Source: Coriobacteriaceae bacterium (GTDB lineage Bacteria > Actinomycetota > Coriobacteriia > Coriobacteriales > Coriobacteriaceae). From it: 64,000 nucleotides of DNA. Location of the stretch: the NCBI GenBank assembly GCA_015062655.1, contig SUUG01000015.1, positions 62,001-126,000 of the forward strand. Reading direction: 5' to 3'. Under the pieces are notes generated by a model. That model did not search any database. It saw only the letters and a list, made by a program, of their open reading frames with translations, and had not been told where the DNA came from. Below are positions 40,653-42,145 of the stretch, piece by piece (the first letter of the stretch is position 1; every line of letters starts with the position of its first letter). A program made the position numbers and the translations under genes.

Positions 40653-40931
40653 CTACTGGATGTTGTCGCGGATGCCGAGTTCCTTGATGAGCTCACGGTA
40701 CTCGTTGATGTCCTTCTTCTTGATGTAGGACAGCAGGCGACGACGCTTACCGACGAGCATCAGCAGGCCGCGGCGGGTGTGGAAGTCCTTCTGGTGGGAC
40801 TTCATGTGCTCGGTCAGCTCCTTGATGCGGTCGGTCAGGATGGCGACCTGGACCTTGGAGTTGCCGGTGTCCTGCGCGTTCTTGCCGAACTTGGCGGTGA
40901 GCTCCGCCTTGCGCTCCTTGGAGATGGTCAT
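40653..40931 (-). CDS. rpsO: 30S ribosomal protein S15
   Basis: Primary 16S-rRNA-binding protein of the small subunit platform. The 92-residue product contains the S15 signature throughout: [51 protein letters not shown], and the terminal [13 protein letters not shown]. Length is normal (88-90 typical, plus a few N-terminal residues). An AAAGGTGG site precedes the ATG. It has a terminator before pnp, so the pair is only partly cotranscribed. A promoter with an extended -10 lies at about 41040. Confidence 0.98.
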
Positions 40932-41035
40932 GGCGATCCACCTTTCTCATGACGGGGCAAAAGGGCCCCTGGATTCGCCCCGGACTGGGAGGCCGCCGGT
41001 GGAGCGGGCATCCAAGGTCGGGGTAGTACCGAGCC

Positions 41036-41062
41036 AGTGTAGCACATGGTCGACCCCGCCAA
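41036..41062 (-). promoter_or_regulatory. Promoter of rpsO
   Basis: On the - strand TGCTACACT supplies an extended -10 (TACACT at 41041-41036), with TTGGCG at 41062-41057 as a -35 at a short 15-base spacing (16 if TTTGGC is used). The leader would be about 98 bases. Confidence 0.5.
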
Positions 41063-41153
41063 AGGAAGCACACAGGTTGGAGCCGGCACGCGCGCGGGGC
41101 GAGGGGCGCGCGGTGGCACGGGAGCGGGTGCACAGGCGCCGACGGCGGCATGA

Positions 41154-41192
41154 GGGGTCGGTCTGACGAAAGCCCCCGCTGTGAACGTTCAC
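41154..41192 (-). repeat. Interspersed repeat copy A
   Basis: Read on the - strand: GTGAACGTTCAC, then a GGCGGGGACTT-like block (here AGCGGGGGCTTT), then GTCAGACCGACCCC. It is an inverted, imperfect copy of the unit at 41288-41323 and shares the GTGAACGTTCAC palindrome with copy B. Confidence 0.65.
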
Positions 41193-41203
41193 GGCGGGGA
41201 CTT
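41170..41203. repeat. Hairpin formed by copies A and B
   Basis: Seventeen-base arms centred between 41186 and 41187 match at 15 positions (AAGCCCCCGCTGTGAAC against AAGTCCCCGCCGTGAAC). There is no U-tract on either side. Confidence 0.7.
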
Positions 41204-41219
41204 ATGGCAAATCCCGTGC
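41181..41219 (+). repeat. Interspersed repeat copy B
   Basis: GTGAACGTTCAC followed by GGCGGGGACTT and then a diverged tail (ATGGCAAATCCC). Head-to-head with copy A, direct repeat with copy C. Confidence 0.6.
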
Positions 41220-41287
41220 ACCGAGCGTCAGTTTGCAGTACTTGAGATGTTCAAGAGGAGGCCGAAATCACGCAGGCGGTCGGATCG

Positions 41288-41323
41288 GTCGTGCATGGCG
41301 GGGACTTCTGTCAGACCGACCCC
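41288..41323 (+). repeat. Interspersed repeat copy C
   Basis: GGTCGTGCAT, GGCGGGGACTTCTG and TCAGACCGACCCC. Together with copy A it forms terminal inverted repeats of about 25 bases bounding a 170-base segment (41154-41323). Confidence 0.65.
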
Positions 41324-41395
41324 CTCCCCTGCCGCGGATCAGCCCCTTGCCGAAAGGCGGCGCGCAACCGACCACTCGTCCGACCGCGCCGCCCC

Positions 41396-42145
41396 TCAGT
41401 GCCCGAGCAGGAACTCGAGGGCGCGCAGGCGGGCGTCGAGATGCGTCGCGGCCCAGACGTGGGCGTGGGCGAGCAGAAGCGTCGCGGTCCGGGCGTCGAT
41501 CGCAGTCGCCGCGAGCTCGTCGAAACGCAGGCCGATGAGCGCGGCGAGCCAGCGGGCCTCGTTCGCGTCGATCTCCTCAGCGCCGGCCACGCTCGCAGCG
41601 CACGAGGCGCACAGCAGGCCGCCCGCCGCCGCGGAGAAATATGTCACAGCCTCATCGCCGCAGGCCACGCACGAGGTCAGATCGGGCCGATACCCGATGT
41701 GGGAGAGGAGCTTCATGATGTAGGCCGCCACGATGAGGTCGAGTGCGGCCCCCTCCCCCACCTTGCCGAGCACGGCGAGGGCGCGTTCGGTGAGGGGGTA
41801 CACGAAGGGGTCGCTGGCGTCCTCGAAGCAGCCGAGCGAGGCCGCCTCCACGATCGCGGCGCCGGCTGAGAGCAGCTCGAAGGAGGGCGCGGCGCCGAGC
41901 GGGGCGGCGATGAGCTCGGCCTGGGAGACGACGTCGAGGGCGCGCCCGCGCGCGAGCAGCAGGTCGACCGTCGAGCACACCTCGCAGCGGGCCGCCAGGC
42001 GGCTCCCGGGCTTGCGGGCGCCCTTCGCCACGGCGCGCACCTGGCGCCCGTCCTCGGCGAGCAACGTCACGATCAGGTCCGTCTCCTTGAGCTTGGTCTT
42101 GCCCAAGACGATGCAGCGGCTGCGGTAGGTGCGCGGGGCCGCCAC
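41396..42145 (-). CDS. recO: DNA repair protein RecO
   Basis: Recombination mediator that loads RecA on SSB-coated DNA with RecR. The 249-residue protein has an N-terminal OB fold (YRSRCIVLGKTKLKETDLIVTLLAEDGRQVRAVAKGARKP), a helical domain, and a four-cysteine zinc motif (C-VAC near 160 and C-ASC near 182). It starts three bases after era, giving the common era-recO pair. No terminator is evident after it; the repeat cluster begins about 70 bases beyond the stop. Confidence 0.94.
   Translation of the reverse strand: MAAPRTYRSRCIVLGKTKLKETDLIVTLLAEDGRQVRAVAKGARKPGSRLAARCEVCSTVDLLLARGRALDVVSQAELIAAPLGAAPSFELLSAGAAIVEAASLGCFEDASDPFVYPLTERALAVLGKVGEGAALDLIVAAYIMKLLSHIGYRPDLTSCVACGDEAVTYFSAAAGGLLCASCAASVAGAEEIDANEARWLAALIGLRFDELAATAIDARTATLLLAHAHVWAATHLDARLRALEFLLGH

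Follow-up and report, generated by a model that had tools for sequence, protein, structure and literature searches.

The closest described counterparts of the repeat analysed here are the REPINs, REP doublets that form a hairpin and are mobilised by a RAYT (PMC3116915). They have two invariant inverted ends and a less conserved spacer, for which length and hairpin capacity are the critical features (Bertels and Rainey 2011, PMC3116915). Distances within REPINs were described as 'perfectly conserved' (PMC3116915), and the spacer was called 'highly diverse' in a later paper (PMC8049555).

In the genus studied here REPIN-type systems are widespread, since many congeners have Y1/RAYT genes with REPs of their own. 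Many of the congener Y1 genes resemble RAYTs and carry an additional C-terminal part, and many of these RAYT-like genes are flanked by inverted REPs of roughly 29-37 bp that are particular to each gene. Most species of the genus hold between 1 and 5 Y1 transposase genes each (loci L152-L192). In the congener G051, a tRNA-like gene and the adjoining REP are duplicated in inverted orientation around a RAYT (L190, 1280-1445 and 2268-2433), with 99% identity over 166 bp. The genus may be Collinsella, for which our literature search found no report of repeats such as the one described below.

Here, we analysed a stretch of 64,000 nucleotides from a Coriobacteriaceae genome (hereafter the window), in which a 173-bp repeat element lies between rpsO and recO. 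Its parts and the flanking genes are as follows.

41153-41325, plus strand: whole element, T-L-R1-spacer-R2-T, 173 bp, one of 12 genomic copies
41153-41166, plus strand: left terminal part T, AGGGGTCGGTCTGA, consensus AGGGGGTCGGTCTGA, conserved wherever a copy has a left T
41167-41187, minus strand: arm L, CGAAAGCCCCCGCTGTGAACG, inverted relative to R1 and R2
41186-41206, plus strand: internal arm R1, CGTTCACGGCGGGGACTTATG, forming a palindrome with L, centre 41186/41187
41207-41289, plus strand: spacer, 83 bp, of fixed length and with a sequence nearly unrelated among copies
41229-41260, plus strand: AT-rich dyad core within the spacer, with approximate family consensus CnATTTGCATAtCTCngaTaTGCAAtTTnG and the centre of the dyad near 41244
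41290-41310, plus strand: arm R2, CGTGCATGGCGGGGACTTCTG, repeating R1 in direct orientation at a distance of exactly 104 bp
41311-41325, minus strand: right terminal part T, TCAGACCGACCCCCT
40653-40931, minus strand: rpsO, ribosomal protein S15 (PF00312), flanking gene outside the element
41396-42145, minus strand: recO (PF02565, PF11967), flanking gene outside the element

The element begins with AGGGG and ends with CCCCCT. Three related repeats had been noticed in the rpsO-recO gap from the sequence alone, and the arm comparison confirmed that they are real, two standing head-to-head on a palindrome and one being direct. L and R1 have the palindrome GTGAACGTTCAC in common, centred at about 41186/41187, and L is the most diverged arm within the window copy. 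Positions 41186-41209 and 41290-41313 are direct repeats (83%, spacing 104 bp), and 41154-41187 and 41290-41323 are 34-nt inverted repeats with 82% complementarity. The sequence-only reading had described a 170-bp segment (41154-41323) bounded by inverted repeats of about 25 bp. Both are present; the element proper is slightly longer, and the terminal inverted repeats, made up of L, R2 and the outer T extensions and ending AGGGGG, measure 34-36 bp.

A genome-wide search for further copies, as that reading had proposed, revealed a family of 12 dispersed elements in the 2.07-Mb genome, all intergenic. The repeat is not a product of chance, because the arm pattern gave 19 genome matches with up to three mismatches and the reversed control pattern gave none. 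A 24-nt terminal pattern gave 21 genome matches, every one inside one of the 12 elements. Copies were found on contigs C4, C10, C11, C12, C14 (which contains the window), C18 and C26, with five on C10 (near 15, 89, 121, 206 and 231 kb) and two on C26.

Within the reach of our searches, which are blind to relatives whose arms have diverged strongly, no copy was detected in the genomes of 39 relatives or in 65 family, 395 order and 396 phylum genomes. Nor was any detected in viral contigs or in phage and plasmid collections. Two scans of 84,980 GTDB species, from which the window's own genome or one very close to it may be missing, also gave no copy. Among the genomes searched the element was found only here, and it appears to be specific to this genome. 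Single matches in G100, G257, G359, G634 and G662 from the order and phylum searches (one per genome, 1-2 mismatches) were taken as chance, as were two weak arm-like matches, L060 and L061, which are coding-like stretches that resemble each other, come from two species and have no second arm nearby.

Nine copies have the three-arm form L-R1-spacer-R2, with T at both ends in eight of them; the ninth, C10:231, is without T beyond R2. The C12 copy is a double form (T-L-s1-L-R-s2-R-T), and those at C10:89 and C11 are truncated to two arms and lack the left T (L-spacer-R2-T). Arm identity between copies averages about 91%. Of the 11 spacers, 10 place R1 and R2 exactly 104 bp apart, and the one in C18 places them 102 bp apart. 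Ungapped identity between the 83-bp spacers averages 37%, as against 25% in circularly shifted controls, and most of this excess resides in the core at spacer positions 23-54, where pairwise identity is 44% against the 25% expected; the flanks outside the core are about 30% identical. The core is 56% A+T, compared with 38% in the rest of the spacer, and its dyad centre is at spacer position 37.5. Since the spacers have diverged with almost no change in length, spacer length is probably constrained.

Gene calls based on codon bias gave no called gene overlapping any of the 12 copies. The gene pairs flanking the copies are in the same direction in eight cases, convergent in two and divergent in two, and among the three-arm copies in same-direction gaps one is sense and four are antisense. 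Neighbouring genes, named with Pfam at all copies other than C10:89, include ftsY/ffh, tyrS, argG, pth, uvrC, ABC-protein and DeoR/HAD genes. The congener recO-rpsO and ftsY-ffh gaps that were readable are without the element, in species too distant for base-exact empty sites; this includes the recO-rpsO gap of G020, the congener with the most similar rpsO. Instead of a sole copy conserved base for base in relatives, we thus found 12 copies and congener gaps that lack them.

In several respects the family resembles the REPINs. Conserved inverted ends are held at a fixed distance around a diverse spacer, all 12 copies are dispersed in extragenic space, and the family is genome-specific, with double and truncated forms as in REP clusters. 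The differences are equally concrete. No end consists of a palindromic, folding REP, and only L and R1 fold, jointly: for single arms, folding does not exceed that of shuffled sequence (z 0.45 and 0.66), in contrast to two congener RAYT REPs (z -4.2 and -8.3). In full copies, the internal arm R1 forms a 40-bp palindrome with L, the consensus of which folds as a strong 19-bp DNA hairpin (-22.3 kcal/mol, z -8.5). The spacer pairing with compensatory changes known from REPINs was not seen here; on either strand the spacers fold no more than shuffles do (z about 0). Inverted repeats visible by eye in some spacers vanished under shuffle tests, and a spacer RNA hairpin was rejected. Arm complementarity is not in excess within copies relative to between copies (p 0.25 for L:R1, not a strong test given how conserved the arms are), so compensatory evolution is not supported. 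The element also differs from REPINs in its third internal arm adjoining the left arm, in the AT-rich dyad of its spacer core, no such core being described in PMC3116915 or PMC8049555, and in having only 12 copies.

The RAYT-linked REPs of congeners (e.g. TGGGAAAATAGGGACAGTCCCTTTTTTCCCA) are likewise short, inverted and intergenic, from the same genus, and GGGAC or GGGGAC is present in both types. They are, however, imperfect palindromes of roughly 29-37 bp flanking a RAYT gene, and their sequence is otherwise unrelated to the arms.

A cognate RAYT (a Y1 transposase), usually accompanied by flanking copies in REPIN systems, was not found. The Pfam model Y1_Tnp, which finds genes in 37 of the 43 genomes of the genus, had no match in this genome, where a gene could lie in a gap of the assembly (98.7% complete, 26 contigs). 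This genome is one of six among those 43 in which no Y1 gene was found. An alignment of nine congener RAYTs, searched without a positive control of its own, had no match either. Nor did the assembly yield an autonomous element that shares these ends, as all 21 terminal matches fall in the 12 short copies. From these searches, a REPIN-type transposase is apparently missing from this genome.

On balance, we consider it somewhat probable that the family is a genome-specific, non-autonomous, REPIN-like element, and we infer that it is mobile. A small non-autonomous mobile element had been one of two suggestions made from the sequence alone, and it gained support from the 12 dispersed intergenic copies in both orientations, their absence in relatives and the terminal inverted repeats. 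On present evidence the element is REPIN-like in organisation and is better not classed as a confirmed REPIN, because the RAYT, the palindromic single ends and the spacer pairing all fail, while the third arm and the core are extra. An enzyme supplied in trans would have scattered the copies, recognising the arms and depending on fixed geometry rather than on the spacer sequence, and mobilisation would probably proceed via DNA folded as a single strand, the route proposed for REPINs. In this reading the AT-rich core and the third, internal arm would be additional parts for recognition or folding. As no mobiliser is visible in the assembly, the family may have been orphaned after loss of its transposase, or may be moved by a different enzyme. 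If the element is indeed REPIN-like, its copies would form a population of such elements, having a conserved core and a third arm, in a genome without a detectable RAYT, although most species of the genus retain a RAYT and REPs of their own. It would offer a natural test both of whether elements of the REPIN type can survive or multiply when no RAYT is present and of where selection acts: on the arm sequence, on the distance between arms or on the core.

The main rival, which strikes us as rather unlikely, is a DNA site of fixed geometry, where one or two host proteins would bind R1, R2 and the AT-rich dyad core and bend or loop the DNA at scattered intergenic positions; the copies would then be functional nucleoprotein sites and not selfish. 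The conservation of arm sequence, arm spacing and core dyad next to a near-random remainder of the spacer fits this reading, as do a distance of 104 bp, close to ten helical turns, and a copy orientation that is independent of genes. Absence from every congener searched would nevertheless be unusual for a site with a host function, the terminal inverted repeats and the truncated and double copies resemble mobile DNA, and the core is weak at 44% identity.

A further reading, unlikely in our view, is a multi-site DNA substrate of a new, non-REPIN kind, in which three 21-bp arms and a central dyad, with strict spacing (ten helical turns) and freely varying filler, would be recognised by some recombinase, transposase or architectural protein of the lineage. 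The element may resemble cer-type Xer sites and the ends of Tn7, with their dyad core or their 20-22-bp arms repeated at a fixed spacing. In contrast to those sites, the core here is degenerate between copies, and the copies would therefore not readily recombine with each other.

It is doubtful that the family represents a MITE moved by a classical DDE transposase, with the autonomous partner now absent and the target-site duplications eroded. Like such MITEs, the elements are short, dispersed and non-coding, with terminal inverted repeats of 34-36 bp ending AGGGGG. A search for target-site duplications, also proposed by the sequence-only reading, found none beyond chance in the nine copies with two T ends, so that, as seen, the element does not qualify as a standard DDE-transposase MITE. 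The assembly contains no longer element bounded by these ends, 21 of 21 terminal matches falling in the 12 short elements, and the interior of a MITE would be expected to be as similar between copies as its ends, yet the spacers are nearly unrelated.

A transcribed structured RNA, such as an attenuator or terminator, is very improbable. The palindrome could form a strong 19-bp hairpin, and the whole window copy folds beyond shuffles (z -4.9), which its inverted repeats account for. The copies nevertheless lie in sense and antisense as well as in convergent and divergent settings, which argues against a cis-acting RNA; the palindrome is not followed by a T-tract, and we observed no covariation, no spacer folding and no match of the element to Rfam models at gathering score. 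A role of the element as an rpsO leader or attenuator was rejected, with 12 copies at unrelated genes in all orientations.

Finally, a decayed coding repeat, the other suggestion made from the sequence alone, can practically be dismissed: most arms are readable in the VHGGDFCQTDP frame, but the same peptide reads outward from each arm automatically because the arms are inverted repeats, no intact multi-repeat ORF and no ORF with coding-like codon use overlapping any of the intergenic copies was found, unrelated spacers separate the inverted arms, and some of the arm changes are non-synonymous in the peptide frame (e.g. CAG to CAC, TTC to ATC). The initial interpretation was thus partly supported, its mobile-element reading standing and its coding reading failing.

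Some of the congener recO-rpsO and ftsY-ffh gaps hold other hairpin repeats instead. Different hairpin repeats (TGTGCCCACGGGTTTGTCTCAG.. and CATGGGTTTGTTTCA..) were seen in the recO-rpsO gaps of G022, G021 and G015 (L105, L106 and L107, respectively), and in G022 a third half-copy about 60 bp further on resembles the L-R-spacer-R plan. In addition, the rpsO leader (about 40935-41045 of the window, minus strand) has a conserved GGTACC..CTTGGATGCTCGCTCCACCGGCGGCTTCCCAG..GGGCGAAT that is also found upstream of rpsO in congeners (L094, L096, L098-L102, L106, L111 and L121). No Rfam match was obtained for this leader. S15 leaders are known from other bacteria. With 13 predicted pairs, three of which have changes on both sides, the conserved rpsO leader is a candidate S15 autoregulatory leader.
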